From the NCBI RefSeq assembly GCF_028745735.1, contig NZ_JAQZSM010000011.1, positions 62,001 through 126,000 on the forward strand: a DNA stretch of 64,000 nucleotides. Direction: 5' to 3'. Within the stretch, counting starts at the first letter, position 1. The number at the start of each line of letters is the position of its first letter. The translations under genes were made by a program, and so were the position numbers. Origin of the DNA: Roseinatronobacter alkalisoli. Its GTDB lineage: Bacteria > Pseudomonadota > Alphaproteobacteria > Rhodobacterales > Rhodobacteraceae. Below are positions 1,444 through 20,134 of this stretch, in pieces. The notes under the pieces are model-generated. The model saw only the letters and a list, made by a program, of their open reading frames with translations. It did no database searches and was not told where the DNA came from.

Positions 1444-1641
1444 ATGAGCCCGGTGAATACCAACCCGCCACCCCCGCACTGCAAGGTCGACTTGCCCCTT
1501 GTCGGACACGGCATCGTGTTTATGCCCGCAACCGAGGCGAGATCCGACGCACTGCTTCTATTCAATAGTGTGCAGTATATCCTGTCTTCGGGGGAAGTTG
1601 CGAGAGCGGATATGGTAATCGAAAGGAAATTTAGACAATGA
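1444..1641 (+). CDS. Doubtful small ORF between MarR-EPS gene and ugd
   Basis: 65 codons filling the gap exactly: its ATG directly follows the regulator stop codon and its TGA overlaps the ugd ATG. That arrangement is suggestive, but I recognise no family, the sequence has no hydrophobic or cysteine pattern of note, and no clear ribosome binding site precedes it. Treat as possible translational-coupling ORF or chance. Confidence 0.2.
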   Translation: MSPVNTNPPPPHCKVDLPLVGHGIVFMPATEARSDALLLFNSVQYILSSGEVARADMVIERKFRQ

Positions 1642-2987
1642 AGATTGCAATGATCGGCACAGGCTATGTAGGCCTTGTCTCTGGGGTGTGTTTCTCCGAT
1701 TTCGGCCATGATGTGGTCTGCGTCGACAAGATGCCCGAAAAGATCACCATGCTGGAACGCGGCGAGGTGCCGATCTACGAGCCGGGGCTGGATGCGGTCA
1801 TGGCGCGCAATGTCGAAGCGGGCCGACTGACATTCACGACTGATCTGGCTACTGCTGTTGATGGTGCCGACGCAGTGTTCATCGCGGTAGGAACCCCGAC
1901 ACGCCGCGGAGACGGTCATGCTGACCTGACCTATGTCATGGCCGCTGCAGCAGATATTGCCCATGCCCTAACCGACTATACGGTAGTGGTGACTAAGTCG
2001 ACCGTTCCTGTGGGCACCAACCGCAAGGTGGCCAACGTCATTCGAGCCACGCGCGCGGACGCAGAGTTCGATGTGGCATCAAACCCGGAGTTCTTGCGCG
2101 AAGGCGCTGCGATTGATGACTTCATGAAACCTGACCGGGTCGTGGTCGGGGTTGAATCCGAGCGCGCAAAGCAAATCATGGGCGAAGTCTATCGCCCTCT
2201 CTTCTTGCGTGAATTCCCCATCGTCTATACCGATCTGGAATCGGCCGAGATGATTAAATATGCGGCCAATGCCTTTCTGGCGACCAAGATCAGCTTCATC
2301 AATGAAATTGCTGCGCTGTGCGAACGGGTCGGCGCGGACGTGAAATCCGTGGCTAAGGGCATGGGGCTGGATGGGCGCATTGGCAACAAGTTCCTGCATG
2401 CAGGCCCCGGCTATGGCGGGTCCTGTTTCCCCAAAGATACCAGCGCACTTGCCCGGATCGGACAGGAGTATGGTGTGCCCCAGCGGATCACGGAGACCGT
2501 GATCACAGTCAATGACATGACCAAGCGGCGCATGATCGATAAGGTGATGGACCTGTGCGGCGGATCAGTGAATGGCAAGACGATTGCAGTGCTGGGGGTC
2601 ACATTCAAACCCGAGACGGATGACATGCGCGACGCCCCTTCGCTGACTGTCGTACCGGCGCTGGTGGGAGGTGGCGCGCACGTGCGCGTGGTTGACCCCC
2701 ATGGCAGGCGAGAGGGTGAGGTGCTCTTGCCCGGCGTGGACTGGGTTGAAGACCCTTATGCCGCAGCCGAAGGCGCGGAATGCCTGCTGGTTCTGACTGA
2801 ATGGAACCAGTTCCGCGCATTGGATCTGAGGCGCTTGGCTGGCTCCATGGTGACCGCTCGTATAGCTGATCTGCGCAACATCTATAGCCGCGAAGACGCG
2901 TTGGCGGCAGGGTTTGTGGAATATGAAGGCGTTGGCCGCGCCAGCATCTCTGATCTGTCCGCTGCGATGAGAGATGCTGCCGAATGA
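1638..2987 (+). CDS. ugd: UDP-glucose 6-dehydrogenase
   Basis: 449 aa, typical for the bacterial enzyme. It oxidises UDP-glucose twice with NAD+ to UDP-glucuronate. The N-terminal Rossmann motif is GTGYVGLVSG (residues 7-16), the catalytic cysteine is in GGSCFPKDT (Cys263), and the C-terminal UDP-binding domain contains VTFKPETDDMRDAPSL. GAAAGGA about 11 nt upstream supports the ATG. The next gene, a UDP-glucuronate 4-epimerase-like enzyme, overlaps by 4 nt, so both act in sequence to supply uronic acid for the exopolysaccharide. Confidence 0.97.
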   Translation: MKIAMIGTGYVGLVSGVCFSDFGHDVVCVDKMPEKITMLERGEVPIYEPGLDAVMARNVEAGRLTFTTDLATAVDGADAVFIAVGTPTRRGDGHADLTYVMAAAADIAHALTDYTVVVTKSTVPVGTNRKVANVIRATRADAEFDVASNPEFLREGAAIDDFMKPDRVVVGVESERAKQIMGEVYRPLFLREFPIVYTDLESAEMIKYAANAFLATKISFINEIAALCERVGADVKSVAKGMGLDGRIGNKFLHAGPGYGGSCFPKDTSALARIGQEYGVPQRITETVITVNDMTKRRMIDKVMDLCGGSVNGKTIAVLGVTFKPETDDMRDAPSLTVVPALVGGGAHVRVVDPHGRREGEVLLPGVDWVEDPYAAAEGAECLLVLTEWNQFRALDLRRLAGSMVTARIADLRNIYSREDALAAGFVEYEGVGRASISDLSAAMRDAAE

Positions 2988-3985
2988 AACGCGCATTCAT
3001 TACGGGAACTGCCGGTTTTATCGGCTTCCATCTGGCTGAATTGCTGTTGCAGGAAGGCTGGGAAGTAGCAGGCTATGACGGCATGACCGACTATTACAAC
3101 GTCACGCTCAAACACCAGCGCCATGACATGCTGCGCCAGCATGCGCGCTTCACGGCGACCGAGGCGATGCTGGAAGATGCCGACACATTGTCCAAGGCCG
3201 TCGAGAATGCGCAGCCTGACATCATCGTGCATCTGGCCGCGCAGGCGGGCGTGCGCTATTCGATCGAAAACCCCCGCGCTTATGTTGAGGCCAATATCAT
3301 CGGCAGCTTCAACCTGATGGAAGCGGCGCTGTCGGCGCGGCCTGCACATTTACTGATGGCCTCGACCAGTTCGGTCTATGGCGCGAACACAGAAATGCCC
3401 TATGCCGAGCCCCACAAGGCCGACACCCAGATGTCCTTCTACGCCGCCACCAAGAAAGCCAACGAGGCTATGGCGCATTCCTGGGCGCACATTCACGGCC
3501 TGCCCATCACCATGTTCCGGTTTTTTACGGTCTATGGCCCTTGGGGGCGACCGGATATGGCGCTGTTCAAGTTCACGAAAGCGATCCTCTCAGGCCAGCC
3601 GATCGACGTTTATAACCACGGCCAGATGTGGCGCGATTTCACCTATGTCGACGATCTGGTGCGCGCCATCCGGCGGCTGATCGACGCAGTACCGGGTCAG
3701 GGTACGGAAGTTGAGGGGGACAGCCTGTCCCCCATCGCCCCGTGGCGGGTCGTGAACATCGGCAATTCAACCAAAGTGCGGCTGGAAGATTTCATCGACG
3801 CGATCGAGGCCGCAACCGGCAAACCCGCGATCCGCAACTACATGGACATGCAACCCGGTGATGTGCCCGCAACATGGGCCGATGCCAGCCTTTTGCGAGC
3901 ACTGACCGGCTATGCCCCGCAAACCGAGCTGTCCGACGGGGTTGCGCGCTTCGTTGACTGGTACAAGGGGTATCACTGTGGCTGA
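2984..3985 (+). CDS. UDP-glucuronate 4-epimerase-like NAD-dependent epimerase
   Basis: 333 aa extended SDR. The Rossmann motif is GTAGFIGFHLAELL at the N-terminus; the catalytic pair is in YAATKK with SSVYG upstream. The DYYNVTLKHQR segment after the first strands and the GMWRDFTYVDD-type block are characteristic of the UDP-glucuronate 4-epimerase (CapI/LspL) group. It would convert UDP-glucuronate from Ugd to UDP-galacturonate in the cytoplasm. Overlaps ugd by 4 nt (ATGA). UDP-glucose 4-epimerase activity is the main alternative, less likely given the neighbour. Confidence 0.88.
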   Translation: MKRAFITGTAGFIGFHLAELLLQEGWEVAGYDGMTDYYNVTLKHQRHDMLRQHARFTATEAMLEDADTLSKAVENAQPDIIVHLAAQAGVRYSIENPRAYVEANIIGSFNLMEAALSARPAHLLMASTSSVYGANTEMPYAEPHKADTQMSFYAATKKANEAMAHSWAHIHGLPITMFRFFTVYGPWGRPDMALFKFTKAILSGQPIDVYNHGQMWRDFTYVDDLVRAIRRLIDAVPGQGTEVEGDSLSPIAPWRVVNIGNSTKVRLEDFIDAIEAATGKPAIRNYMDMQPGDVPATWADASLLRALTGYAPQTELSDGVARFVDWYKGYHCG

Positions 3986-5312
3986 CATGCCAGATCGCTC
4001 CTCGCTGCGCACCCGCATCAGTGCGCGTCTGTTCGGTGGGGCCTCGGGCGGGGTGTTCCGGGGGATGGTGACACTGGCACTGGGCAGTGGCATTGGCCGG
4101 ATCATCGGCATTGCGTCGATCCCGGTTCTGACACGGCTCTACAGCCCCGAGGACTTTGGCGTGCTGGCGGTTTTTACCGCGCTTGTGGCAATCCTCGCAC
4201 CGCTGGTCACGCTGCGCTACGCACTTGCGCTGCCCTTGCCGCGCCATGACGGGATCGCGATGAACCTGCTGGTTCTGTCTACAGGGCTGATGCTGGGGCT
4301 GACGGGGTTTTTTGCGCTGACACTCTGGCTGTGGGGCGCGCCCCTGTTGGCGCTGGTCTCGATGCAGGTGCTTGCCCCCTGGTGGTGGCTGATTGCGCTG
4401 GGGGTATTGGGGACCGCTGCCTATGAACTACTGACCATGTGGGCCACGCGCAGGCGCGCTTACAAGGTGATTGCACAGACCAATGTGACCCAGAGCGCAG
4501 CAGGCGCACTGGTGAAGATCGGCCTTGGCCTGGCCGCGCTGCAGCCGCTGGGGCTGTTGGTGGGTCAGGTGATCGCACAGACAGGGGGCGTTGGCCGATT
4601 GATAAGCGGCTTTCAGGCCGAGATGCGCGCGAACTGGCGCCATGTCAGCGTGAGACGGATGCGCGCCGCGGCATGGCGACACCGGGGGTTCCCGATCTGG
4701 CGCGTGCCGTCGCAGTTCCTGATGGTGTTCTCGATGCAGGCGCCGATGCTCGCGTTCGCGGTGTTGTACGATAAAGGAGTGGTTGGCCAACTTGCGCTTG
4801 CGTTCAGTGTCATTGTAGTTCCTGTAAGTCTGCTTGGCCAAACAACTTCGCAAGCTTATTACGCTGAAATATCCAAATTGGGGCCGAGCAGACCAAAAAG
4901 TATTCTGCTTACCATGAAAAGCACATTGAGCAACATGTTATGGCTCTCGCTCGTACCAACATTAATAATCTTTTTTGGGGGAGGAGCGCTCTTTGCATTC
5001 ATTCTCGGTGCAGCATGGCTCCAATCTGGTGAGTTTGCGCAGATTCTCTCGATCTTTATGCTGACACAATTGCTGAACAATCCTATCTCAAGAACATTCT
5101 CCGTACTCGGAATGGAGTCAAGATATTTTCTCATGAACGCTCAGCGCGCTGCGTTAACCATCAGTAGTTTCACGATGAGTTACTTTTTTGCTCACGATCC
5201 TTTTCAAACACTCATTCTCTATGTTGCCCTTACTTCGGCACATCGTATACTCGTTATCCTCTATATTTTCCTAACCTTAAGAAGTAGGATTCGTCAGAAT
5301 GCCCATCTATAA
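3978..5312 (+). CDS. wzx: Wzx-type oligosaccharide flippase
   Basis: 444 aa, hydrophobic throughout with about 12 predicted membrane segments; the N-terminal GMVTLALGSGIGRIIGIASI followed by PVLTRLYSPEDFG is typical of the MATE/PST flippase family. It would move undecaprenyl-linked repeat units to the periplasm. A GTG start at 3978 is preferred because AAGGGG lies 7 nt upstream; it overlaps the epimerase by 8 nt (ATG at 3987 is the alternative). Base composition changes sharply near 4780: the first 800 bases are GC-rich like the flanking genes, the rest is AT-rich like the sulfotransferase, suggesting a recombination junction within the gene. Confidence 0.88.
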   Translation: MADMPDRSSLRTRISARLFGGASGGVFRGMVTLALGSGIGRIIGIASIPVLTRLYSPEDFGVLAVFTALVAILAPLVTLRYALALPLPRHDGIAMNLLVLSTGLMLGLTGFFALTLWLWGAPLLALVSMQVLAPWWWLIALGVLGTAAYELLTMWATRRRAYKVIAQTNVTQSAAGALVKIGLGLAALQPLGLLVGQVIAQTGGVGRLISGFQAEMRANWRHVSVRRMRAAAWRHRGFPIWRVPSQFLMVFSMQAPMLAFAVLYDKGVVGQLALAFSVIVVPVSLLGQTTSQAYYAEISKLGPSRPKSILLTMKSTLSNMLWLSLVPTLIIFFGGGALFAFILGAAWLQSGEFAQILSIFMLTQLLNNPISRTFSVLGMESRYFLMNAQRAALTISSFTMSYFFAHDPFQTLILYVALTSAHRILVILYIFLTLRSRIRQNAHL

Positions 5313-6132
5313 GCAGGCTGTAAATCACAACGTCACTTTGGGAAGATGGTTAAAATTCCAGATGCGAGATGCGCTTGTCAAATTACTGACACGAGACAAA
5401 GAAATCAAAATAAATCGTGCTCATCCCGTGTTCATTGTCGGCTGCGGCCATAGCGGGACGACACTCCTTGCAGATCGACTAGGTTTGCATCCTCATGTTC
5501 ACACCATCCGTCAAGAGACAAACATTTTTTTGCCAAGTCGTTTACGGTCGGCAGCATCGGATTGGCTCTCACATTCTCTTGATCTAGTTTCTGATATCGG
5601 GAAACATGTACTGATCGAAAAGACTCCTAAGCATGTTCATGCCATTGAGGATATTCTCCGGGTCTGTCCTCAGGCGGTGATCCTAGGTTTGTCAAGAAAC
5701 CCACTCGACAACATTGGCTCTCTGAAAAGAAGATTTGGCGCTATTGATCTCTGTATCGACCGATGGATGATTGATAATTGTGCGCTTCTGGATGCAACCG
5801 AAAAAGGCCAGGTTGAAACGATCAAATATGAGAGCCTAGTGTCAAATTATAATTATGTGATCGCAAGCGTGTTTGACAAGATCGGGGTCGAACCACTGGA
5901 TGCAGATTGGATTGAAGAACGAGCGAAGAAGAGAGAGCTTGTTCCTAAAAACGAAAATCAAAAAATCAGATATGCCGAGGTATCTCGCCAAATTGAGAAC
6001 AAGATTGGGTTCTCCGCATCATACCTCACTAACGAAGAAAAAGATGTAATCCTAGAGCGGACACATTCCGTATCTGAAAGACTAGGCTATTCGAAAGACT
6101 TCTTAAATGATCTAAAAGGCAAAAACAGATGA
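5299..6132 (+). CDS. Sulfotransferase family protein
   Basis: 277 aa. The 5'-phosphosulfate loop is FIVGCGHSGTTLLADRL (near residue 46) and the 3'-phosphate-binding region is VILGLSRNPLDNIGS (near residue 129), the two PAPS contacts of cytosolic-type sulfotransferases. It likely transfers sulfate from PAPS to a sugar of the repeat unit. Overlaps the wzx end by 14 nt and the following MurA-like gene by 4 nt. AT-rich compared with the rest of the cluster, so probably acquired with the distal part of wzx. The acceptor cannot be read from sequence. Confidence 0.85.
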   Translation: MPIYKQAVNHNVTLGRWLKFQMRDALVKLLTRDKEIKINRAHPVFIVGCGHSGTTLLADRLGLHPHVHTIRQETNIFLPSRLRSAASDWLSHSLDLVSDIGKHVLIEKTPKHVHAIEDILRVCPQAVILGLSRNPLDNIGSLKRRFGAIDLCIDRWMIDNCALLDATEKGQVETIKYESLVSNYNYVIASVFDKIGVEPLDADWIEERAKKRELVPKNENQKIRYAEVSRQIENKIGFSASYLTNEEKDVILERTHSVSERLGYSKDFLNDLKGKNR

Positions 6133-7397
6133 AGTTGAAAACAAATGCGGCTTCGATTTTGAACGGTTCCGTATCCGTCAGCGGCGCCAAGAATTCAGCG
6201 ACACGTGTACTCGCGGCCAGTTTGCTGAGCGACTACCATGTGACTTTGCGGAATTTCCCGCTCGAACTTGAGGACGTAAAGGCAAAGCTTGCGTTCATTC
6301 GTTCAATGGGGGCTGAGTTGGTAGCCTCGTCTGACACGGAAGAGCTGTGCGTCCACGGGCGAGATTTGAGTTTCGATCAGATTTCAGATTTCAATCTGCC
6401 GATCCGCACAACCTATTTGCTAGCCGGAGGGGCACTGGCGCGGCATGGTCATGCAAAGGTTCCATATCCCGGCGGGTGCAAGATCGGCAGTCGGGGCTAT
6501 GATCTACACATCATGGTCTGGAAGGCGCTGGGGTGCGAGGTCGAAGAACTGCCGGAGTATATCAGTGTAACCGGGCGGCTAAAGGGTGGTGAGATTGATT
6601 TTCCGATTTCCACTGTTGGTGGAACCGAGAACGCACTGATCTGCGCCGCGGTCGCGTCTGGCGACACACGGATCCGCAATGCTTATGTCACTCCCGAGGT
6701 GCATGATCTGATCGCGTTTCTACGCGAGATGGGTGCGCAGATTGAGCTGGAAGGAAGCAGTTTGATCAATGTGAGTGGCCGAGGCGGGCTACTGGGTAGC
6801 GCAACATTCTCCATCATGCCGGACCGGATCGAGGCGCTGACATGGATCGTGCTGGGTGCGGTCAGTGGCGGGCGGTTGCTGGTCCGGAATGTTCCATTGG
6901 ACACGATGCAAGTACCGCTGATCCACCTGCGTGATGCAGGGCTGGATTTTTTCACGAATTCCGACTCTGTCCAGATCGGACCTGAGTGTATAGGGCCGCA
7001 CGGTCTACAGCCTTTTGAGCTCGCAACGGGAACACATCCGGGTGTGATCTCTGACATGCAATCATTTTTCGTGTTTCTGGCGCTGTTCGCAAACGGTCGC
7101 TCGATCATCCATGACTACCGATATCCGGAACGGATTGCCTATGTTACAGAACTTGCAAAGTTCGCCCCCAATGCACTGGAAGCTGAACAAGGCAAGATAA
7201 CCGTTCGCGGGCCTACCAGCCTGATCGGCGCTCATGCGACTTCAACTGATCTGAGGGGCAGTATGGCGCAAATTATGGCGGCTCTGTGCGCCGAAGGTCC
7301 AAGCAGGGTTGATGGCGTGGAAATGGCGCTCCGCGGATACAATAGGTTGCCAACCAAGCTTCAGTCCTTGGGAGTGCAGGCAGAATGGACCGACTGA
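6129..7397 (+). CDS. MurA-like UDP-GlcNAc 1-carboxyvinyltransferase (EPS-cluster paralogue)
   Basis: 422 aa, full length for MurA/EPSP-synthase-fold enzymes, which transfer enolpyruvate from PEP to the 3-OH of UDP-GlcNAc. Active-site residues are kept: Lys21-Asn22 in SGAKNS, catalytic Cys117 in PGGCKIGSRGYDLH, the Asp in ISDMQS and the late RGYNRL arginine. It sits inside an exopolysaccharide cluster, with a 13-nt overlap to a MurB-like gene and no cell-division or peptidoglycan genes around. It is therefore likely a second copy making UDP-MurNAc or a related lactyl-ether sugar for the polymer. A role as the only cellular MurA cannot be excluded from this window. Confidence 0.88.
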   Translation: MKLKTNAASILNGSVSVSGAKNSATRVLAASLLSDYHVTLRNFPLELEDVKAKLAFIRSMGAELVASSDTEELCVHGRDLSFDQISDFNLPIRTTYLLAGGALARHGHAKVPYPGGCKIGSRGYDLHIMVWKALGCEVEELPEYISVTGRLKGGEIDFPISTVGGTENALICAAVASGDTRIRNAYVTPEVHDLIAFLREMGAQIELEGSSLINVSGRGGLLGSATFSIMPDRIEALTWIVLGAVSGGRLLVRNVPLDTMQVPLIHLRDAGLDFFTNSDSVQIGPECIGPHGLQPFELATGTHPGVISDMQSFFVFLALFANGRSIIHDYRYPERIAYVTELAKFAPNALEAEQGKITVRGPTSLIGAHATSTDLRGSMAQIMAALCAEGPSRVDGVEMALRGYNRLPTKLQSLGVQAEWTD

Positions 7398-8359
7398 GCG
7401 CCACCGATCTGGCCGAACTCTCCGCGCTTTGTCCTGGCGGCGTTGCGCGTGATGTCGACCTGTCGGCCATCAGCCAGTGGCGGATCGGGGGGCGCGCCGA
7501 TCTGGTTTTGCGACCAGAGGACACAGTGCAGGTCGCGGCACTACTTCGCTGGTTCGCGGACCGGTCCATTCATCCAGTTGTCATCGGACTGACCAGCAAC
7601 CTGCTCTTCGATGATACCGGCCTGCGCGCGCCCTGCATCCAGATCGGCACGCGCATGGCGCAAACGCGGATCGAGGGTGCCGATGTCCACGCCGCTGCGG
7701 GGGTATGGGTGCCGGGCCTTGCGCGTCGGCTCATGCTGGCCGGTCTGGGCGGCGGCGAACATATCTGCGGCATCCCCGGAACACTCGGCGGCCTGATCTG
7801 CATGAATGGCGGCAGCCAGCGCAAAGGGATCGGCAGCGCTGTGGTCACCGTGGACAGTGTTGACCTTGATGGCACCATCCACCAGCGCCGGGCCGATGCG
7901 TGCGGCTTCGCCTATCGCCGCTCGGTCTTTCAGACAAATGGCGAGATCATCACAGCCTGCCATCTGCGCCTTGCCTCGCGCCCGCGCACTGAGATCCGGG
8001 CCGAGATGCGCGCCATCCTGGCCGACCGGCGCCACAAGTTTCCGCGCAAAGAGCCCAATTGCGGCTCGGTTTTCAAATCGAACCCGGCGATGTATGCTGA
8101 AATCGGCGCCCCTGGTGCGGCAATAGAAAGCCTGGGCTTCAAGGGACAGCGCATCGGCGGAGCGCTGGTGTCACCGCGCCATGCGAATTTCATTGTCAAC
8201 ACGGGCGGGGCGCGCGCGCAGGACGTGTTGACCCTGATTGCGCGCATTGTGGAAGCGGTTGAGGTCGCCACGGGCTACCGGATGGAGGCCGAGGCGATCT
8301 TTGTCCACGCCGATGGCCGGCTCCAACCCGCTGATACAGTTCTGGAAGGATCGTCATGA
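7385..8359 (+). CDS. MurB-like UDP-N-acetylenolpyruvylglucosamine reductase
   Basis: 324 aa, length of MurB. FAD-binding PCMH domain: IGGRADLVLRPED then GLTSNLLFDDTG; substrate and catalytic parts: CGIPGTLGG, FAYRRSVF (catalytic Arg), NCGSVFKSNP with Ser228 matching the proton donor Ser229 of E. coli MurB, and EAEAIF near the C-terminus. It would reduce the enolpyruvyl ether made by the preceding gene to the D-lactyl ether. The two genes overlap by 13 nt, so they are translationally linked. GC-rich, unlike the block before it. Confidence 0.88.
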   Translation: MDRLSATDLAELSALCPGGVARDVDLSAISQWRIGGRADLVLRPEDTVQVAALLRWFADRSIHPVVIGLTSNLLFDDTGLRAPCIQIGTRMAQTRIEGADVHAAAGVWVPGLARRLMLAGLGGGEHICGIPGTLGGLICMNGGSQRKGIGSAVVTVDSVDLDGTIHQRRADACGFAYRRSVFQTNGEIITACHLRLASRPRTEIRAEMRAILADRRHKFPRKEPNCGSVFKSNPAMYAEIGAPGAAIESLGFKGQRIGGALVSPRHANFIVNTGGARAQDVLTLIARIVEAVEVATGYRMEAEAIFVHADGRLQPADTVLEGSS

Positions 8360-9300
8360 CCGAAACAATGCCCACGGTGTCTGTGGTCTGCGCCTGGTAT
8401 AATAGGGCCGACTATATCCGTGACACCATCGACAGCCTGCTGGCGCAGGATTACCCGAATTTCGATATCACTGTGGTCAATGATGGCAGCCCCGATCCGC
8501 GGGTGCGAGAGATCCTCGACAGCTACACGGACCCCCGGCTGCGGGTGATCCATCAGGACAACACAGGCTTCACCCGCGCCATCCGCCGCGCGATTGTTGA
8601 AAGCGACGGGACGTATATCGCCATCCAGGGGGCCGGGGATATTTCGCTGCCGGGGCGGTTGTCGGCGCAGGTGAGATATCTGGAGGACCGGCCGGATTTT
8701 GCTGTCGTGGGATGCCGTTATGTGAATCAGGTCAAGGGACCGGACGGAGATGGCGAGCGCAAGCTAGCTCGCGTTCGGACATTGGAACCGACGGCGCGCG
8801 ACATCATGCGGGGAAATCCATTCGGACATGGTGAGGTGACTATGCGGCGGGCCGCCTATGATGCAGTTGGCGGATACCGTGTGTTCTTCGAGAATTCGCA
8901 GGACAAAGACCTCTGGATGCGAATGAGCGTAAACTATCGATTGGGGATCATTGACGAAACCCACTATCAGCGCGTTATCTTTCTGGCTGACGGAATCGCG
9001 TCTAGTTTCGAGAAAACTCTGAAACAAATTGCTTATTCACGCGTGGCAGATGTGTGCCATCAGGAGCGCCTCAAGGGGGAGCGGGACTCAGTGGATCGTT
9101 TCGGCCAACTTGCTTTGATGAGGGTGCCAAAAGGATGGCGCACGACTTGGCGAATTGTGAGGGCAGTGAAGCAAGTGGCTTCTCAAAGGCTCTTAGCGTT
9201 TGAAGACTTCAAGATCACTCAAGAACTTTTTGGTACGTTTGCAGTGATTCCGAACCTGTTGTTCTATGTTGTATATCGAAAAGTATATGGTGTTCGATAG
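8356..9300 (+). CDS. Family 2 glycosyltransferase
   Basis: 314 aa, GT-A fold. N-terminal VSVVCAWYNRADYI and VVNDGSPDP are standard GT2 nucleotide-binding motifs. At the metal site the usual DADD is replaced by GAGD (AIQGAGDISLPGRL, about residue 92), so the first Asp of DxD is missing while the last is kept; this variant may still be active. Overlaps the MurB-like gene by 4 nt. The first 400 bases are GC-rich; beyond about 8850 the sequence drifts AT-rich into wzy. Probably adds a sugar to the lipid-linked repeat unit; donor unknown. Confidence 0.85.
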   Translation: MTETMPTVSVVCAWYNRADYIRDTIDSLLAQDYPNFDITVVNDGSPDPRVREILDSYTDPRLRVIHQDNTGFTRAIRRAIVESDGTYIAIQGAGDISLPGRLSAQVRYLEDRPDFAVVGCRYVNQVKGPDGDGERKLARVRTLEPTARDIMRGNPFGHGEVTMRRAAYDAVGGYRVFFENSQDKDLWMRMSVNYRLGIIDETHYQRVIFLADGIASSFEKTLKQIAYSRVADVCHQERLKGERDSVDRFGQLALMRVPKGWRTTWRIVRAVKQVASQRLLAFEDFKITQELFGTFAVIPNLLFYVVYRKVYGVR

Positions 9301-10566
9301 ATGTTCATCTACGTAGGCGCTTTACTCGTTGCATTTTGCGTTTCTATATTCGCTTTAAGGCGTCAGCTTGCTTTGGAAATAGCTGTGTTTCCAATAATTA
9401 TGATTCTGTACTTTTTAACTACCTTCTACATATTCGAGGTCGCTCACGAGATTCCAATTTTTATTCTTCACTATGAGAGAGGGGAGGAATATTTGTATGC
9501 TCTTATTGTCATTACGCTTTACCCGGCCGGAATTTTGCTGGGGTTTTCAATTCCAGCAAGATTGTCGGGAATGCGTTTTAATACTCGCCATGTAATTAAC
9601 TCAGCGATTTCCAATTTAAGGATGAGGAATGTAGCGAGGCGCAGCGTCTTTGTCGAACTATCTCTTTTCTTTGTGGGTATCGTGCCCGTGCTTATTATAC
9701 TAATTTTTGCAGACACCTCAGATCTCTACATTAGAGATACCTTCCCGCTTCGATCAATCGACGGGTTCGCGATGGGTTTGGCTGATACATTATTTTGGGT
9801 TTCTCTTATTGCGATACCCATTATTAAAAACCGTGCTCTCAAATATTTTTCACTGCTTGCATTGATAATAGTGTTTGCGGCCGCAGGCGAAAGGCAAGCG
9901 TTTGTTGCGCCTGTCGTATTCGTATTTTTCGAGCGGGCTGTATTTGGGAGAAAGAGTTTTGGGCATATTTTTTTAATTGCTTGCTCTTTCTGGTTGCTTG
10001 CTGTTCTGATATATTTAAGATATCAGTGGTTGGGTGGTTTGAAATATGTATCTCTGCTGTTTTTTTCGTTTGATGGTGATGTTATTGGATTTTTGGTGTT
10101 CTCTGTTAACTATATGTCGGTTTTTTCGGTTGTTACAGTGAGTGAGGCTATGATTGTGTTTGGGGAAGATTGGAGGGCATTTTGGTATGCAATCAACCCT
10201 CTTCCATCCAGCTTTGCTGACGGGCAACGTGAATTTTTGAATACAGCATCTCTACGACCTAATGTGCCATATTCGGGCTTGGCGATGATGCATAATCATT
10301 TAAATGTTGTTGGGGTTGTTGGGGTTGGGTTTGTTGTTGGATTGGTGGGATTTATCTCTGTTCTGCTTTCCCCCCGTGTCAATGCTTTGTCCGTGTTGCT
10401 TCTTTTGACTTTCTTGATGGTTCCATACATTTTCTCTTTGCAGTACAATCTTCGCGCATTTAGTAGGCTTATTTACTTTTCAGGTTTTATTTTTGTTTCT
10501 TATCAATTATTATTTCGAAGGCTGCGCTTTAATTTTTTAGGTATGCATGGGTTAAAAAATGTTTAA
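9301..10566 (+). CDS. wzy: Wzy-like oligosaccharide repeat-unit polymerase
   Basis: 421 aa, strongly hydrophobic with about 10-12 predicted membrane segments and one larger periplasmic loop containing NPLPSSFADGQREFLN, as in O-antigen polymerases. Starts immediately after the preceding stop codon. Very AT-rich with T-runs and a low-complexity VVGVVGVGFVVGLVG stretch, in sharp contrast to the GC-rich flanks; this is typical for wzy. Assignment rests on topology and position between glycosyltransferases, because Wzy proteins share little sequence. Confidence 0.75.
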   Translation: MFIYVGALLVAFCVSIFALRRQLALEIAVFPIIMILYFLTTFYIFEVAHEIPIFILHYERGEEYLYALIVITLYPAGILLGFSIPARLSGMRFNTRHVINSAISNLRMRNVARRSVFVELSLFFVGIVPVLIILIFADTSDLYIRDTFPLRSIDGFAMGLADTLFWVSLIAIPIIKNRALKYFSLLALIIVFAAAGERQAFVAPVVFVFFERAVFGRKSFGHIFLIACSFWLLAVLIYLRYQWLGGLKYVSLLFFSFDGDVIGFLVFSVNYMSVFSVVTVSEAMIVFGEDWRAFWYAINPLPSSFADGQREFLNTASLRPNVPYSGLAMMHNHLNVVGVVGVGFVVGLVGFISVLLSPRVNALSVLLLLTFLMVPYIFSLQYNLRAFSRLIYFSGFIFVSYQLLFRRLRFNFLGMHGLKNV

Positions 10567-10617: not shown

Positions 10618-11757
10618 ATGAACGTGAATACTTTTGTTCTTATCACTAAGACCCTCACGAAGGGCGGAGCCGCCTCCGGAGCACGCAACCTACTTGGGGC
10701 ACTCCGGGCTGCCGGGGCAGAGGTGACAGTTCTGGATGCCTATGCTCAGATGCAGCTACACCCGATCCGCGCTGTGCGTGTCGCGGAACGGGTTGTCGAG
10801 CGGCTGGCACAGGATGCTGAGACGCATTTCCTGCGCCTTGGCCCGCCAACCTTCGATCTGAGGGCGGTCTACCGTCAATACAAGCCAGACGTTATCCAGC
10901 TATGCGACATTTCTGCCAATACGATCCGGTTCAGCGACATTGCGCATCTGCCGTGTCCGGTCGTGCATCGTATGAGTGATTTCTGGCCCTATAACGGTGC
11001 GCATCATTACGCCGAGACTCCGCCTCGACAGCCTGACCTTGCGGATCGGATGTTGCGGCGTCTGGTGTTTGACGGGCGCTCGATGCCCCATCGCCGCGTC
11101 GCGCCCTCTGATTGGCTGGCCTCACGTCTGGGCGGTCCAGACATCAGCGTGATCCGTAACGCGGTTGCTGTTCCGACGCACGTGGACCCAAGATCGTCGG
11201 TCGAGGGGGTAGTGCGGTTTGGTTTCATCTCAGGTCAGATCATGGACCCACGCAAGGGCTATGCTGCCTTGCCCTCGCTTCTGAATGCGCTTGCCGGTCG
11301 CGTAGACAAAAGGGTGCAGCTTCATGTTTTCGGGCGCAATGCGAATGGTAATCTTGCGCAGATTCCGGGCGTCGAGACCATTCATCATCCAGCTTTTTCC
11401 AGTTCCGATCTGGCGCGAGTCTATACGTCTTTCGATATCTTGCTCTGTCCGTCCCGTTTGGATAACTCCCCCAATGTTGTGACTGAGGCGCTGGCCCACG
11501 GCACCCCGGTCATCGGGCAAAAGGGCACCGGGATGGAAAGCTATATCCGGCAAGATATCGGGGGGCTGATCGACTTTCACCGGCTTAACGGTCCTGCTGT
11601 GGAGGAATTCTCTGGCGTCGTGCAGGCGATCAGCCGCAATTACGAACAGATATCTATGCAAGCGATGCGATACACGCGGGACGAGCTGTCCCCACCGGTG
11701 ATCGGAAAGCTATATCTCGATCTCTATGAGGAACTTCTGATGAAGGGCGTCAAATGA
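10618..11757 (+). CDS. Family 4 glycosyltransferase
   Basis: 379 aa, GT-B fold. The C-terminal donor-binding domain has DILLCPSRLDNSPNVVTEAL then AHGTPVIG, containing the E-x7-E motif of GT4 enzymes; the N-terminal LITKTLTKGGAASGARNLL is the usual acceptor-domain glycine loop. A retaining transferase that probably extends the repeat unit at the inner membrane. GC content returns to the cluster norm after the AT-rich wzy. It overlaps the next GT2 gene by 4 nt. Confidence 0.88.
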   Translation: MNVNTFVLITKTLTKGGAASGARNLLGALRAAGAEVTVLDAYAQMQLHPIRAVRVAERVVERLAQDAETHFLRLGPPTFDLRAVYRQYKPDVIQLCDISANTIRFSDIAHLPCPVVHRMSDFWPYNGAHHYAETPPRQPDLADRMLRRLVFDGRSMPHRRVAPSDWLASRLGGPDISVIRNAVAVPTHVDPRSSVEGVVRFGFISGQIMDPRKGYAALPSLLNALAGRVDKRVQLHVFGRNANGNLAQIPGVETIHHPAFSSSDLARVYTSFDILLCPSRLDNSPNVVTEALAHGTPVIGQKGTGMESYIRQDIGGLIDFHRLNGPAVEEFSGVVQAISRNYEQISMQAMRYTRDELSPPVIGKLYLDLYEELLMKGVK

Positions 11758-12500
11758 AAATCTCTGTCATCATGGCAGCCTATAATTCTCAGGCCACTAT
11801 TGGCCGGGCCATCGAGTCCTTTCTGGCCCAGGCCCATCCAGACAAGGAGTTGATCGTCATCGACGGTGCTTCGAAAGACAACACCTGCGCTATTGTCGAA
11901 AACTTCAACAGCCCGCTCATCCGCCTTCACAGCGAGCACGACAACGGCATTTATGATGCCATGAACAAGGGATTGCGGCGGATCTCGGGCGATGCTTTCG
12001 GCTGCCTCAATTCCGATGATTGCTACGCCCGTCCCGACGCTCTGGCCCTGATTGCCGATGCGTTGAAAGACGCAGATATCGTTTCGGGCCGCCTACATTT
12101 CGTGCGCGAACATGACGGCAGCGCACCGGTGCGCAGGTGGCATCCGGAATTGCATCGGCCCGGTGCTTATGCGCGGGGCTTCAGCCTGCCACATCCTACA
12201 AGCTATGCGCGCCGCACGGTGTTGGAGCGAGTGGGAGAGTTCAGCACGCAGTATCGTAGCGCCAGTGATTATGACTGGCTAATGCGCGCGCTCGAGATCG
12301 AAGGATTCTCACATGCGATCATCGATGAAGTGCTGGTGAATATGCGAATAGGCGGTGAGAGTACGGCAGGTCTCCGCGCTATCTGGAAGAACTCGCGCGA
12401 GCTTCTTGAGGTCCGGCAGAAACGATTGGGCAGCGGTGTGTTAGATATAGCAATGGTTCTGAATCTTTACAGAAAATTCATGCAGCGCGCTGGTCACTGA
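11754..12500 (+). CDS. Family 2 glycosyltransferase (WcaE/PGL-type)
   Basis: 248 aa, short GT2. ISVIMAAYNSQATIGRAIES and IVIDGASKDNTC form the nucleotide site; NSDD (CLNSDDCY, about residue 88) is the DxD metal motif. The block DNGIYDAMNKGL is characteristic of the WcaE-like subgroup found with GDP-fucose genes. Overlaps the GT4 gene by 4 nt and is followed by gmd, so it may use GDP-fucose, which is inference. Confidence 0.87.
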   Translation: MKISVIMAAYNSQATIGRAIESFLAQAHPDKELIVIDGASKDNTCAIVENFNSPLIRLHSEHDNGIYDAMNKGLRRISGDAFGCLNSDDCYARPDALALIADALKDADIVSGRLHFVREHDGSAPVRRWHPELHRPGAYARGFSLPHPTSYARRTVLERVGEFSTQYRSASDYDWLMRALEIEGFSHAIIDEVLVNMRIGGESTAGLRAIWKNSRELLEVRQKRLGSGVLDIAMVLNLYRKFMQRAGH

Positions 12501-12530: not shown

Positions 12531-13649
12531 ATGAAAAAAGCACTCATCACAGGCATCACTGGCCAGGACGGCAGCTATCTGGCGGAATTTCTGCTGGATA
12601 AAGGCTACGAGGTGCATGGGATCAAGCGGCGCGCATCGCTGTTCAACACACAGCGAATTGACCATATCTATCAGGATCCGCATAGCAATCACCAGCGGCT
12701 CAAGCTGCATTATGGGGATCTGACCGACAGCTCGAACCTGACGCGGATTCTGTCTGAGGTGCAGCCAGATGAGGTGTACAACCTTGGCGCGCAGAGCCAT
12801 GTCGCCGTGAGTTTTGAGGCGCCCGAATACACAGCCGATGTTGATGGAATGGGCACGCTGCGTCTGCTTGAGGCGATCCGGTTTTTGGGCCTGGAGCAGA
12901 AGACGCGGTTTTATCAGGCGTCCACATCCGAGTTATATGGGCTAGTGCAGGAAATCCCACAGCGCGAGACCACGCCATTTCATCCTCGTAGCCCTTATGC
13001 CGTTGCGAAGCTCTATGCCTATTGGATTTGTGTGAACTATCGCGAAGCGTACGGGATGTATGCCTGTAACGGCATTCTTTTCAATCATGAAAGCCCGCGC
13101 CGCGGTGAGACATTCGTGACCCGCAAGATCACCCGCGGGCTTGCCAATATTGCGCAGGGACTGGAGCCTTGCCTGTTCATGGGCAATATCGACGCGCTCC
13201 GCGACTGGGGGCATGCCAAGGATTATGTGCGCATGCAGTGGATGATGTTGCAGCAAGAGCAGGCGGAGGATTTCGTGATCGCAACCGGCGTTCAGTATTC
13301 AGTCCGCGAGTTCATCACATGGACCGCAGCCGAGTTGGGCATGATACTTGAATTCAGGGGCGAAGGCGTTGAAGAGGTCGCTGTCGTGGCCGATGTGCAG
13401 GGCGATAGCGCTCCAGCAGTCAAACGCGGAGATGTGATCATGCGCATTGACCCACGTTATTTCCGGCCCGCCGAGGTCGAAACCCTGTTGGGTGACCCGA
13501 CAAAAGCCAAAGAAAAGCTGGGCTGGGTGCCGGAAATCACCGCGCAGAAGATGTGTGCCGAGATGGTGGCCAACGACCTCAAGACCGCGCGTCGCCATGC
13601 CTTGTTGCGCCAGCACGGCATGGATCTTCCTGTTTCGCTGGAAGGGTAG
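12531..13649 (+). CDS. gmd: GDP-mannose 4,6-dehydratase
   Basis: 372 aa, length of the bacterial enzyme. Extended SDR with [16 protein letters not shown] at the N-terminus, catalytic Thr/Glu/Tyr/Lys in ASTSELYG and [10 protein letters not shown], and the [16 protein letters not shown] segment specific to GMD. It converts GDP-mannose to GDP-4-keto-6-deoxymannose, the substrate of the next gene. AAGGA about 8 nt upstream supports the ATG. Confidence 0.97.
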
Positions 13650-13652
13650 GGC

Positions 13653-14624
13653 ATGAAACGGATATTCATAGCAGGCCATCGGGGCATGGTGGGAGGGGCG
13701 ATCCTTCGAAAGCTTGAGGCACGCGCAGCGGCCGGGCACGCTATTACGATGATCACGCGGTCGCGCTCTGAGCTCAATTTGACTGACCAGCACGCTGTGC
13801 GCGACTTCATGCAGACGGAGCGGCCGGATGTTGTGATTCTGGCGGCGGCCAAGGTTGGCGGCATTCATGCCAACAACACCTATCCCGCAGACTTCATCTA
13901 CGAAAACCTGATGATTGAATGCAATGTAATTCATCAGGCTTTCCAGGCTGGGGTTCAGCGCTTGCTGCAACTGGGATCGTCTTGCATCTATCCACGCATA
14001 GTTGCCCAACCGATGCGTGAAGATGCCCTGTTGACAGGTGTCTTGGAACCCACCAACGAGCCCTACGCCATCGCCAAGATTGCAGGGATCAAGCTTTGCG
14101 AAAGCTACAATCGTCAGCATGGGACGGATTACCGCAGTGTCATGCCGACCAACCTTTATGGCCCTGGTGACAATTTTCATCCTGAGAACAGTCATGTCCT
14201 GCCCGCGCTGATCCGCCGTTTTCACGAAGCCGCGCAGTCAGGTGTCGATAGCGTGACGATCTGGGGTTCAGGGTTGCCGCGCCGGGAATTTCTGCATGTC
14301 GATGATATGGCCGATGCCAGCCTTTTCGTGCTCGACCTGCCAAAGGGCGACTATGACACCAACACCCAGCCGATGCTGAGCCATATCAACGTGGGCAGCG
14401 GCGTGGATATCTCGATCCTTGAGCTGGCGCAGATGATCGCGGACATCACCGGTTTCGAGGGCCAGATCAACACTGATCCCACAAAGCCGGATGGTACAAT
14501 GCGCAAACTGATGGATGTCGGGCGCCTCAAGGCTTTGGGATGGTCCGCAGGTATCGGTCTGCGAGCAGGAATAGAGGACACATATCAATGGTATCTGTCC
14601 CATCACGCCAAAGCACGTCACTGA
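13653..14624 (+). CDS. fcl: GDP-L-fucose synthase
   Basis: 323 aa epimerase-reductase. N-terminal [10 protein letters not shown] coenzyme motif, GSSCIYP and [16 protein letters not shown] catalytic region, and [20 protein letters not shown], the hallmark of GDP-fucose synthase. Makes GDP-L-fucose from the gmd product with NADPH. Three bases after gmd, with GGAAGGG as ribosome binding site inside the gmd end. Shows that the polymer probably contains L-fucose. Confidence 0.97.
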
Positions 14625-14643
14625 AAGCGAGAATATAGCCAAT

Positions 14644-16071
14644 ATGTCAACGCTCATTCATCCAGTTATTCTATGTGGTGGCGCAGGGACGCGATTGTGG
14701 CCGCTGTCGCGAAAAAGCTACCCCAAGCAGTTCACGCAAATTTTGGGTGATGAGAGCCTGTTTCAGGCTTCGGCGCGGCGGCTGTCGGCACCAATGTTTG
14801 CACCGCCCACAGTCATAACCGGGGCGGATTTCAGGTTTATCGTCATCGAGCAGCTTGCAAGCATCGAAATTGCGCCTGGCGCAGTGCTGATTGAACCGAC
14901 AGGCCGCAATACCGCGCCTGCCATTTGCGCCGCCGCACTGAAGTTGCAGCAGAACATGGACGATGCCGTCATGCTGGTTGCGCCGTCTGATCATGTCATT
15001 CCGGAAGACTCAGAGTTTCGCGATGCGGTCGCAGCTGCACTCCCCGCCGCGGCAGAGGGGAGGTTGATTACATTTGGCATTCGCCCGGACCGCGCCGAAA
15101 CCGGCTATGGTTGGCTGGAGCTTGGGCAGAGTATTGAGGGCATTGATGTCCCGATGGCCCTTAAGCGCTTTATCGAAAAACCCGAAGCCGATCTGGCGCA
15201 ATCGATGCTTGATGGTGGACAGCATCTGTGGAATGCGGGGATTTTCCTGTTCTCAGCAAATGCAATCCTCAAGGCGTTTGAGCGATTTGCGCCCGATATT
15301 CTAGAGGGCGCGCGCGCCGCGGTCGCGGGTGCGCAGAGTGATCTTGGCTTTACAAGGTTTGACCCGAAGCCATGGAACGACTTGCCTGACATCTCGATCG
15401 ACTATGCCGTGATGGAAAAGGCTGACAACCTTTCGGTTATGCCATATCGCGGGGCTTGGTCAGATCTCGGTGGATGGGAGGCCGTCTGGCGCGAGGCGGG
15501 ACCTGATGCGCAAGGCGTAGTCACCCATGGCCCTGCGCATGCTTTGGATTGTGAAAATTCACTGCTGCGCGCAGAATCCGAAAAACAGCAACTTGTCGGC
15601 ATTGGCTTGAAAGACATTGTCGCCGTGGCAATGCCGGATGCTGTGCTTATCGCACACAAGAGCTGTGCGCAGGATGTGAAACTTGCGGTAACGACACTCA
15701 AAGCGCAGGGAGTATCCCAAGCCGAAACACTGCCGCGCGATTACCGGCCATGGGGCTGGTATGAAAGCCTCGTCATGGGCGCGCGCTTTCAGGTCAAGCG
15801 CATTGTTGTGCACCCCGGCGCGGCACTTTCCCTGCAAAGCCACAATCACCGCTCTGAGCATTGGATTGTTGTGGAGGGCACTGCAAAGGTTACGATTGAT
15901 GACAGCGTGAAACTGGTGACCGAGAACCAGTCAGTCTATGTCCCGCTTGGGGCTGTGCACCGCATGGAAAACCCCGGCAAGGTACCGCTGACACTGATCG
16001 AGGTGCAGACCGGCAGTTATCTTGGCGAAGATGACATCATTCGCTACGAGGATGTTTATGCGCGCAGCTGA
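14644..16071 (+). CDS. manC: Mannose-1-phosphate guanylyltransferase / mannose-6-phosphate isomerase
   Basis: 475 aa, the bifunctional type II form. The nucleotidyltransferase signature is LCGGAGTRLWPLSRKSYPKQ at the N-terminus; FIEKPEADLAQS lies in the middle. The C-terminal ~110 residues form the cupin isomerase: RPWGWYESL, HPGAALSLQSHNHRSEHWIV with metal-ligand histidines. It turns fructose-6-P-derived mannose-P into GDP-mannose for gmd. The phosphomannomutase step is supplied by the gene at 18063. Confidence 0.96.
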   Translation: MSTLIHPVILCGGAGTRLWPLSRKSYPKQFTQILGDESLFQASARRLSAPMFAPPTVITGADFRFIVIEQLASIEIAPGAVLIEPTGRNTAPAICAAALKLQQNMDDAVMLVAPSDHVIPEDSEFRDAVAAALPAAAEGRLITFGIRPDRAETGYGWLELGQSIEGIDVPMALKRFIEKPEADLAQSMLDGGQHLWNAGIFLFSANAILKAFERFAPDILEGARAAVAGAQSDLGFTRFDPKPWNDLPDISIDYAVMEKADNLSVMPYRGAWSDLGGWEAVWREAGPDAQGVVTHGPAHALDCENSLLRAESEKQQLVGIGLKDIVAVAMPDAVLIAHKSCAQDVKLAVTTLKAQGVSQAETLPRDYRPWGWYESLVMGARFQVKRIVVHPGAALSLQSHNHRSEHWIVVEGTAKVTIDDSVKLVTENQSVYVPLGAVHRMENPGKVPLTLIEVQTGSYLGEDDIIRYEDVYARS

Positions 16072-16936
16072 CAAATTGCCCGTGTTGCTGGTTGGCGCCT
16101 CTGGGCGGGTCGGTCGCATGGTCACGCATCATTGGCCGCAAATGTCAGGCAGCTTGCCTATGGTGGCACAGTTTCGCCGCAGCACCACTCTGCCCGATTG
16201 CTTGATTTGGGATCCCTTGACTGGGCCAGAACCATTGCTGGATGCGGTGTCTATGACGGGTGGTTTCTCAGCCATGATCATGCTGGCTGGCGTGACGCCG
16301 GGGCCAGGTAAAGATCTTGCATTGAACCGGACATTGGCGGAGGCCTGCCTTGATGCGGCATCGCGCGCTGGGATCGGGCGGGTTCTGCTTGCGTCGTCCT
16401 CGGCGGTTTATGGTGCGGGAGCAGGCACGCCGTTGGCAGAAACTGCATCCTGCGATCCTGCCAATGCTTATGGGGCCGCTAAACTTGCGATGGAAAAGGG
16501 CTGTGCGTCTTGGCGTGCGCGCGGCATGGACCTTTGCATGCTGCGGATTGGGAATGTGGCCGGGGCCGATGCCTTGCTTCTAAACGTGGCAAAATCTGCG
16601 CCGGATCAAGCCATTGAGATCGATATTTTTGATGATGGCCGTGGGCCGGTCCGCTCCTATATCGGGGTGCAGACCTTGGCATCGGTCCTTCAGTCGCTTT
16701 GCCTGCACCCTGACCAATTGCCGGAAATTGTCAACATTGGTACGCGCGAGCCGATTTCGATGGACGCCTTGGGTGATGCTGCGCGCCACCCCTGGCTTAA
16801 GCGAAGCCCTTCTGGGTCTACCCCTCAGAGCATCACGCTCGATTGCAGTTTGCTTTCGACATTGCATGAATTCAACACGCTGGACTCTCGACCCGAAGAA
16901 ATGGTCCGGCAATGGAAAGAAACCCTTCAGCCATGA
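16058..16936 (+). CDS. NAD-dependent epimerase/dehydratase of unknown sugar
   Basis: About 292 aa extended SDR with VLLVGASGRVGRMVTHHWP as coenzyme loop, SSSAVYG and YGAAKLAMEKG as catalytic Ser/Tyr/Lys region, and PVRSYIGVQTLASVL late in the domain. The ATG at 16058 is chosen since GAGG lies 6 nt upstream; it overlaps manC by 14 nt. Probably modifies a nucleotide- or lipid-linked sugar just before priming. Substrate not predictable. Confidence 0.8.
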   Translation: MRAADKLPVLLVGASGRVGRMVTHHWPQMSGSLPMVAQFRRSTTLPDCLIWDPLTGPEPLLDAVSMTGGFSAMIMLAGVTPGPGKDLALNRTLAEACLDAASRAGIGRVLLASSSAVYGAGAGTPLAETASCDPANAYGAAKLAMEKGCASWRARGMDLCMLRIGNVAGADALLLNVAKSAPDQAIEIDIFDDGRGPVRSYIGVQTLASVLQSLCLHPDQLPEIVNIGTREPISMDALGDAARHPWLKRSPSGSTPQSITLDCSLLSTLHEFNTLDSRPEEMVRQWKETLQP

Positions 16937-17538
16937 CTTTTTCCAAGCGTGCCCTTGATCTTGTCGTCGCGATTATCCTGCTGGTCATTCTTGGCCCAAT
17001 CATCTTGATCACCGCTCTGATCATTCTGGTTCTGGATGGGCGACCGGTTCTCTATATTTCGGAACGCATGAAATCCCCCACAGAGGGTTTCAATCTGATT
17101 AAGTTCCGTACCATGAAACCTGTTGCCGAGGACAGTGGTGTCTCTGGCGGGGATAAATCAGACCGCATCACACGCACCGGCCCATTTCTGCGGCGTTCGC
17201 GGTTGGATGAGTTGCCACAGCTTTGGAATGTGATCCGCAGCGATATTAGTTTCATCGGACCTCGCCCGCCTTTGCGTCAATATGTAGAGCGCTTCCCAGA
17301 TCTTTATGCGCGGGTTCTGAAATCGCGGCCAGGCGTGTCGGGACTTGCCTCGATCTATTTTCATGCACATGAAGAACACCTTCTGGCGCGCAGCCGTAGC
17401 CGAGAGGAAACCGACACGATCTATTGCCGCGCCTGTATCCCGCGCAAGGCGCGGCTGGATCTGATCTATCAGGCCAGGCGCAACCTTTGTGTAGACATCA
17501 TGCTCATGCTCAAGACCGTGTTCAAGCGGCTAAGGTAA
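16933..17538 (+). CDS. Priming sugar transferase (undecaprenyl-phosphate sugar phosphotransferase)
   Basis: About 201 aa, the minimal catalytic domain of the bacterial sugar transferase family (WcaJ/ExoY/PglC-like). One N-terminal membrane segment (LDLVVAIILLVILGPIILIT), then FNLIKFRTM, RRSRLDELPQLWNVIRSD and FIGPRPPLRQYV, the conserved Asp-Glu and PRP motifs of monotopic phosphoglycosyl transferases. It would put the first sugar-phosphate on undecaprenyl phosphate. ATG at 16933 overlaps the epimerase stop (ATGA). Last gene of this long co-oriented set. Confidence 0.92.
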   Translation: MTFSKRALDLVVAIILLVILGPIILITALIILVLDGRPVLYISERMKSPTEGFNLIKFRTMKPVAEDSGVSGGDKSDRITRTGPFLRRSRLDELPQLWNVIRSDISFIGPRPPLRQYVERFPDLYARVLKSRPGVSGLASIYFHAHEEHLLARSRSREETDTIYCRACIPRKARLDLIYQARRNLCVDIMLMLKTVFKRLR

Positions 17539-20024: not shown

Positions 20025-20134
20025 GCTGATGGAATTACCCTTCGGAGCCAATGCTGCCCATGTACTGACGTTCTTCGATGATCGATAGCGATGCGGATCG
20101 TCAGAGCCACGAGCGCGCCGACACCCCGTATGGT
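20025..20134 (-). pseudogene. IS110-family transposase fragment
   Basis: Reading on the minus strand, TIRGVGALVAL in one frame continues after a small deletion as DDPHRYRSSKNVSTWAALAP in another. Together these match the C-terminal helix-hairpin-helix and following block of IS116/IS110/IS902 transposases (GVGPxTA ... DDPxRFxxS). Only this stub remains, frameshifted, next to the wza 5' region. Confidence 0.6.

Follow-up and report, generated by a model that had tools for sequence, protein, structure and literature searches.

Introduction

Sugars that carry a lactyl ether are already known from capsules, lipooligosaccharides (LOS) and marine polysaccharides. N-acetylmuramic acid (MurNAc) occurs in the capsule of Vibrio vulnificus ATCC 27562 (PMC7247339) and in the LOS of Psychrobacter arcticus (PMC4515632), and 3-O-(1-carboxyethyl)-glucuronic acid occurs in the polysaccharides of Alteromonas HYD657 and 1644 (PMC2901825). 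Here we analyse a MurA-MurB gene pair embedded in an exopolysaccharide (EPS) cluster of Roseinatronobacter alkalisoli (Alphaproteobacteria; Rhodobacterales). The window, by which we mean the whole 64,000-nucleotide stretch analysed, covers bases 62,001-126,000 of contig C13 (NZ_JAQZSM010000011.1; 134,877 bp), and the host genome is 4.84 Mb in 130 contigs with an estimated completeness of 100%.

Our analysis suggests that this pair makes the donor in a mobile polysaccharide module, murA-murB-GT2 (GT2, glycosyltransferase family 2), which would yield a uridine diphosphate (UDP)-3-O-lactyl sugar for the polymer. We put the probability of this reading at about 0.8. No publication tying lactyl-ether sugars to a dedicated MurA-MurB pair was found in the full-text literature searched, and earlier knowledge of such a pair is possible.

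Compared with MurA (EC 2.5.1.7), the window MurA has the common fold and the catalytic and phosphoenolpyruvate (PEP)-binding residues, including Cys115. Unlike it, the window MurA scores below the family cut-off, falls in a separate clade, carries Arg327 without Glu188, and is encoded in an EPS operon. The window MurB resembles MurB in its flavin adenine dinucleotide (FAD)-binding and MurB_C domains and in Ser228, Arg178 and Glu303, but unlike housekeeping MurB it does not lie beside ddl, and the nearest housekeeping relatives seen are MurBs of the type found in Desulfuromonadales (Desulfuromonadales-type hereafter). A MurA-family enzyme outside peptidoglycan synthesis has been described in NikO, the uridine monophosphate (UMP) enolpyruvyl transferase of nikkomycin synthesis (PMC6801904). 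NikO (4fqd) has the same fold as the window MurA, with a template modelling (TM) score of 0.84-0.85, but the two are only 23% identical, compared with 30-33% to MurAs, and their sequence match is weaker and partial (E 3.9e-24). Its acceptor is UMP, and the available part of that paper mentions no MurB partner.

With respect to the polymers, the V. vulnificus capsule contains a lactyl-ether sugar in a surface polysaccharide, as is proposed here from the genes. The Alteromonas polymers have the lactyl ether at O-3, but come from a different organism. The HYD657 polymer also contains glucuronic acid (GlcA), fucose (Fuc) and mannose (Man), as predicted from the window cluster (PMC2901825), and is sulfated (PMC5852497).

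The window pair is a second MurA-MurB pair

The first-pass annotation of this DNA had claimed two overlapping genes with intact active sites, and both ORFs (open reading frames) were found intact at their positions (Table 1), with Cys117 (equivalent to Cys115 of E. cloacae, whose numbering is used below) and Ser228 present as described. The MurA-like ORF matched Pfam EPSP_synthase (E 1.5e-55), and the MurB-like ORF matched MurB_C (E 1.4e-26) and FAD_binding_4. The window MurA scored 342.1 bits on the NCBIfam murA equivalog TIGR01072, below its cut-off of 392.7. The window MurB scored 161.1 bits on TIGR00179, above its cut-off of 144.5, and narrowly missed the stricter NF010480 (252.5 vs 259 bits). 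An AlphaFold2 model of the window MurA, with a mean predicted local distance difference test (pLDDT) of 90.7 and Cys-loop residues 117-122 poorly modelled, matched the MurA structures listed at TM 0.84-0.90 (by query length) with 30-33% identity.

Besides the cysteine, the window MurA retains K22, N23, R91, R120, D305, R331, D369, R371 and R397, which together with C115 we take to be the MurA catalytic residues. It has Arg at position 327 and Thr at position 188. Its identity to other members of the order is 33-37% among the matches listed (132 of 196 genomes had a match at E <= 1e-60, own genome counted). An intact pair in Maritimibacter shares 80% identity with the window MurA and 75% with the window MurB.

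A search for further copies, which the first-pass annotation had proposed, was positive. Another MurA with the usual Cys loop is encoded on contig C120, with AroA on C87, and another MurB is encoded on C43, where the adjoining ORF reads by eye as ddl. The window pair is thus a second, non-housekeeping MurA-MurB pair, "housekeeping" here being a label that rests on score and position, not on function. That it might be the sole or the housekeeping set does not hold, since second copies exist and the trees described below separate the window MurA. Its remoteness from cell-wall clusters fits the window genes inspected, the right half of the window being annotated in part.

Phylogeny of MurA and MurB

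In a MurA tree of 94 rows (89 different, a few rows being one gene fetched twice), 41 housekeeping MurAs fell on one side of a branch with a Shimodaira-Hasegawa-like approximate likelihood-ratio (SH-aLRT) support of 100. The MurAs on the other side, called cassette MurAs below, formed clade I (23 rows, including the window), clade II (29 rows) and the single locus L110. In a second tree of 97 different rows, a single branch (SH-aLRT 99) separated 54 housekeeping MurAs, spanning at least five phyla, from 43 cassette MurAs. The window MurA did not cluster with housekeeping MurA in either tree. Both trees are quick ones without bootstrap and with long branches.

An origin of the cassette MurA as the housekeeping MurA of another phylum was rejected. 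The second tree included 18 added housekeeping rows, namely 13 from genomes with Desulfuromonadales-type MurB, two from other carriers and a single row for each of Bacteroidota, Verrucomicrobiota and Actinomycetota, and every one of them was placed among the housekeeping MurAs. The last three rows, like L110, have long branches, which makes their exact placement unsure. The cassette MurBs grouped with Desulfuromonadales-type MurBs and apart from the host's other MurB. That tree held seven true housekeeping MurBs; 31 loci were fetched for it (L004, L151-L180), the rest of which failed the BLAST cut-off or repeated cassette copies.

In four loci (L042, L043, L044 and L056) MurBs of the window group were paired with clade II MurAs, and the two genes therefore do not always move together. 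The Thioalkalivibrio locus L043 (4501-6293) has a clade II MurA, then a clade I MurA remnant of 73 residues with 70% identity to the window MurA, and directly after it murB. This remnant is the trace of a MurA replacement.

Active-site and sugar-pocket residues

All ten presumed catalytic residues of MurA were kept in both cassette clades wherever a letter was present; one housekeeping row of the 97-row alignment is without R331. The positions near the UDP-sugar showed another pattern. At position 327, every cassette MurA with a letter there (42 of 42) has Arg, whereas the 54 housekeeping MurAs all have Ile or Val. At position 188, the same 54 all have Glu, and each of the 43 cassette MurAs has Thr, Ser or Arg instead. 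The cassette MurAs jointly shift V161 to S/T/R, A92 to T/N and T304 to S, and residues 92, 93, 303, 304, 309, 325, 329 and 330 are altered in most of them. Because the cassette MurAs carry Arg327 and are without Glu188, a different, perhaps acidic, UDP-sugar acceptor is suggested. A modelling paper places Val327 and Asp305 in the active-site area and gives Glu188, Val327 and Phe328 as ligand contacts (PMC11628175). Docking contacts with Val327 and Phe328 appear in a second paper (PMC10816260).

For MurB, Ser228 and Arg178 were found in 49 of 49 cassette proteins and Glu303 in 48 of 48 with a letter there; we assume these three to be the catalytic residues. The cassette and Desulfuromonadales-type MurBs both differ from other housekeeping MurBs, for example at R146, K218 and S232.

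Recurrence of the cassette in genomes and plasmids

We used the MurB alignment to scan 84,980 genomes; 119 relatives were confirmed, of which the best 80 were retained. A murA lay within 2 kb of this type of murB in 44 of these best 80 of the 119. The other 36 loci comprised 29 of the Desulfuromonadales-type MurB group without murA and seven scattered ones, some of them cut by a contig end. MurB was rejected as a clean marker of the cassette on account of those 29. Of the 29 genomes concerned, 13 were checked, and in 11 of them no MurB other than the Desulfuromonadales-type one was found, so these MurBs without murA look like housekeeping copies.

Whole-genome counts covered 37 of the 44 cassette genomes. 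Two MurAs straddling the TIGR01072 cut-off, one over and one under, were found in 36 of them, and in the remaining one, Pelagicoccus, both were under. All 37 have two murB genes. The second MurAs scored 294-382 bits on TIGR01072, and three genomes gave a third, weak MurA match (about 77 bits). Marinobacter segnicrescens, the genome of locus L053, has three MurB genes and three MurAs, of which one scores above the cut-off and two below it. In Albimonas (L196), a cassette-type MurA with Arg327 lies about 15 kb from MurB on the same contig.

The carriers belong to Alpha-, Beta- and Gammaproteobacteria, Bacteroidota, Verrucomicrobiota, Planctomycetota, Actinomycetota and one Sumerlaeia bin. In the order of R. 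alkalisoli, the set was found in at least 2 of 390 genomes (its own and Maritimibacter), a lower bound, as five candidates were scored per genome. L208 was dismissed as an independent carrier, being identical to L041. Such a sporadic taxonomic spread is the pattern that would be expected from horizontal transfer.

Removal of eight near-duplicates from 51 cassette-MurB loci left 43 non-redundant loci, of which two, L049 and L053, are without murA at the locus. A homologue of Wzx, Wzc, Wza, the priming transferase or a glycosyltransferase sought was present in 37 of the 43, and one of the first four in 26.

On plasmids, the eight best MurB matches (45-55% identity) all adjoined a MurA match, in Haematobacter, Qingshengfaniella, Agrobacterium MA01 and five Rhizobium records; five of these eight records were opened and their ORF pairs checked. 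On the Qingshengfaniella plasmid (L037, 13404-17205) there is a four-gene unit, hexapeptide acyltransferase-murA-murB-GT2, outside an EPS cluster. The surroundings within 14 kb otherwise carry genes annotated for choline, proline and sugar metabolism and transport.

The linked GT2 glycosyltransferase

The commonest neighbour families in the 43 loci were MurB (42), MurA (41) and the GT2 that follows murB in the window (23), followed by Wzx (17), epimerase (16), dehydrogenase (14) and hexapeptide acyltransferase (12). Of the 22 clade II loci, 11 have the acyltransferase, as does L110; it was found in none of 16 clade I loci. At least 2 kb of sequence downstream of murB was present in 34 loci; the GT2 lay within 2 kb of murB in 18 of these and within 150 bases in 11. 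In 72,556 plasmid records, the seven best GT2 matches (E <= 1e-37) came from seven of the eight plasmids on which murA and murB adjoin, and the other five matches at E <= 1e-20 were weaker.

DNA likeness to the Maritimibacter locus is 64-81% across murA and murB and into the GT2 as far as about codon 112, and 42-52% beyond. In protein, the amino-terminal half of the window GT2 is 87% identical to its Maritimibacter counterpart and the remainder 32%, and GC content at third codon positions (GC3) falls from 0.78 in that half to 0.54 in the remainder. The amino-terminal half of GT2 enzymes binds the nucleotide sugar, and so the module seems to be one that makes the donor and binds the donor, with the acceptor half exchanged.

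The sulfotransferase gene upstream of murA is a low-GC insert; in the Maritimibacter locus, nothing corresponds to it between wzx and murA. As judged from base composition, the cluster is a mosaic, because low-GC genes (5299-6132, 0.435; 9301-10566, 0.400) flank the cassette.

Organization of the exopolysaccharide cluster

The plus-strand cluster spans bases 20-24,207 of the window. It begins with an NusG/RfaH-like gene, UDP-glucose dehydrogenase (ugd), epimerase, Wzx, sulfotransferase, MurA, MurB and GT2, continues with a probable Wzy, GT4, GT2, gmd, fcl, manC and a short-chain dehydrogenase/reductase, and ends with the priming transferase, a phosphomannomutase-like protein and Wza-like and Wzc-like proteins. 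The priming transferase, the Wzx flippase and the Wza/Wzc export pair are thus all encoded, and the placement of the pair in an EPS cluster, between a sulfotransferase and a GT2, was confirmed; the operon is probably of the Wzx/Wzy type. The sulfotransferase, murA, murB and GT2 ORFs overlap successively by 4, 13 and 4 bases. The product of 9301-10566 had no match in Pfam or NCBIfam and is probably the Wzy polymerase. The supply genes predict Man, Fuc and GlcA plus sulfate in the polymer.

Outside the cluster, VirB4-like, lytic transglycosylase, TrbI/VirB10-like and VirB11-like genes form a type IV secretion set at 32879-41080, and because of this set the contig may be a plasmid or an integrative element. 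The region 46008-58552, with a GatZ/KbaZ-like protein, a ROK kinase and a DeoC/LacD aldolase, is apparently one of sugar catabolism.

Table 1. Features of the EPS cluster and its right-hand neighbour in the window.
Feature	Position	Strand	Match or property
UDP-glucose 6-dehydrogenase (ugd), predicted UDP-GlcA producer	1638..2987	+	4a7p, E 1.8e-169
NAD-dependent sugar epimerase/dehydratase	2984..3985	+	best solved relative 5u4q, then 6zl6
Wzx-type flippase	3912..5312	+	PF13440
Sulfotransferase	5299..6132	+	PF13469; GC 0.435
MurA-like enolpyruvyl transferase, 422 aa, cassette clade I	6129..7397	+	
MurB-like FAD reductase, 324 aa	7385..8359	+	
GT2 glycosyltransferase, candidate lactyl-sugar transferase	8356..9300	+	
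GT2 amino-terminal half	8356..8691	+	87% identity to Maritimibacter; GC3 0.78
Hydrophobic protein (by eye), probable Wzy polymerase	9301..10566	+	GC 0.400
GT4 glycosyltransferase	10618..11757	+	
Second GT2 glycosyltransferase	11754..12500	+	
gmd, fcl, manC (GDP (guanosine diphosphate)-mannose and GDP-fucose supply)	12531..16071	+	
Priming sugar-phosphate transferase	16912..17538	+	PF02397
Phosphomannomutase-like protein	18045..19424	+	best model NF011943, under cut-off
Wza-like export protein and Wzc-like tyrosine kinase	20091..24207	+	best models under cut-offs
glmS, extra copy	24498..26315	-	

Discussion

By analogy with its family, the window MurA would join PEP to a UDP-sugar, giving a UDP-3-O-enolpyruvyl sugar, and MurB, with reduced nicotinamide adenine dinucleotide phosphate (NADPH) and FAD, would reduce the enolpyruvyl group to a lactyl ether. 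The GT2 would then transfer the lactyl sugar to a lipid-linked unit, which Wzx would flip before polymerisation. The first-pass annotation had proposed muramic acid or a related lactyl-ether sugar in the polymer. A dedicated lactyl-ether sugar stands as the best reading, because the arrangement recurs in many genomes, where polysaccharide genes mostly surround it and a single GT2 family is often present, while the muramic acid part of the proposal is left unsettled by Arg327 and the loss of Glu188.

Several observations weigh against our reading. None of the polysaccharide genes sought was found in six of the 43 loci (L049, L052, L058, L087, L097 and L109), and the GT2 family was not detected in 20 of them, some flanks being cut. 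The control for the GT2 halves was of no use, its first set being one protein and its second five proteins in seven pairs. The pairs of the second set were 25-35% identical, with none at higher identity, and had a mean half difference of 12.3, compared with 7.3 in the GT2 family at equal identity. The evidence for the sharp drop inside the window GT2 is the DNA profile together with base composition. A same-genus locus, L209 (2-3077, minus strand), has wzx, a clade II-like murA and a GT2 with 81% identity in its first half, with no murB between. From this locus it seems that the reduction step is not always encoded in place. In the L209 genome, which is 79% complete, a housekeeping MurA was not found, and the only MurB found, located elsewhere, scored as housekeeping-like. 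Because only three sites (at least 80% conserved per group) separate cassette MurB from its Desulfuromonadales-type relatives, MurB gives little apparent sign of a new sugar. Finally, ugd was found in the flanks of just 12 of the 38 loci of clade I or II, so a hexuronic acceptor is not required by the context.

Within the reading of a dedicated lactyl-ether donor, two sub-cases for the sugar are nearly level. The first, which we hold tentatively, is that the product of the pair is ordinary UDP-MurNAc and that the polymer includes muramic acid, a sugar with the capsule and LOS precedents given above. The closeness of cassette MurB to a MurB type that is mostly the only one in its genomes, and the small number of sites between them, would agree with this. 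The glmS that the first-pass annotation had pointed out beside the cluster is real. The host genome has two full-length glmS genes; the window copy is 70% identical to that on C54, which sits behind an ORF reading by eye as glmU. The extra copy favours an amino sugar somewhere in the polymer. As a regular partner of the cassette, however, glmS was rejected, being nearby in just 1 of 85 other loci, and the concerted change of the UDP-sugar pocket would be unexpected with UDP-GlcNAc as the substrate.

The second sub-case, hardly less plausible and likewise short of even odds, is that MurA acts on a UDP-hexuronic acid, which would lead to a di-acidic UDP-3-O-lactyl-GlcA or -galacturonic acid. Arg327, confined to the cassette MurAs and at a position listed in the active-site area, and the ugd and epimerase genes upstream in the same operon favour an acidic sugar. 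The sugar itself has a precedent in the two Alteromonas polysaccharides, and Alteromonas lipotrueae carries a clade I cassette. On the other side stand the little-changed MurB and the uneven presence of ugd, a gene common in EPS clusters in any case.

Going further, and with more doubt, we propose that the two deep MurA clades with Arg327 and without Glu188 could be 3-O-enolpyruvyl transferases of UDP-hexuronates instead of UDP-GlcNAc. Together with a MurB derived from the Desulfuromonadales type and the donor half of the GT2, they would form a transferable route to 3-O-lactyl-uronic acids of the kind found in the Alteromonas polymers, and loci without murB, such as L209, may leave an unreduced enolpyruvyl ether.

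The first-pass annotation had also offered a back-up role in peptidoglycan synthesis. A back-up or stress copy, or a fosfomycin-tolerant target, would agree with the common fold and catalytic residues, but is very improbable, as the cassette genes form separate clades with a changed pocket, stand mostly among polysaccharide genes in an operon context, often with one GT2 family, and are rare in the order, and as all 42 cassette MurAs in which position 115 holds a letter retain Cys115, the residue targeted by fosfomycin. Equally improbable is that the genes are decayed or silent passengers, as the mosaic cluster with its low-GC stretches and the MurA remnant of Thioalkalivibrio might suggest, for both window ORFs are intact and overlapping, retain their catalytic residues and are closely similar to the intact Maritimibacter pair.

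If the reading of a donor-making module is right, a recognisable cassette would allow polymers with lactyl sugars to be predicted from genomes, and would supply enzymes for making di-acidic sugars. The murA and murB labels inside polysaccharide clusters should be checked before such genes are counted as cell-wall genes. The cassette would also show how peptidoglycan enzymes have been re-used for a new sugar.

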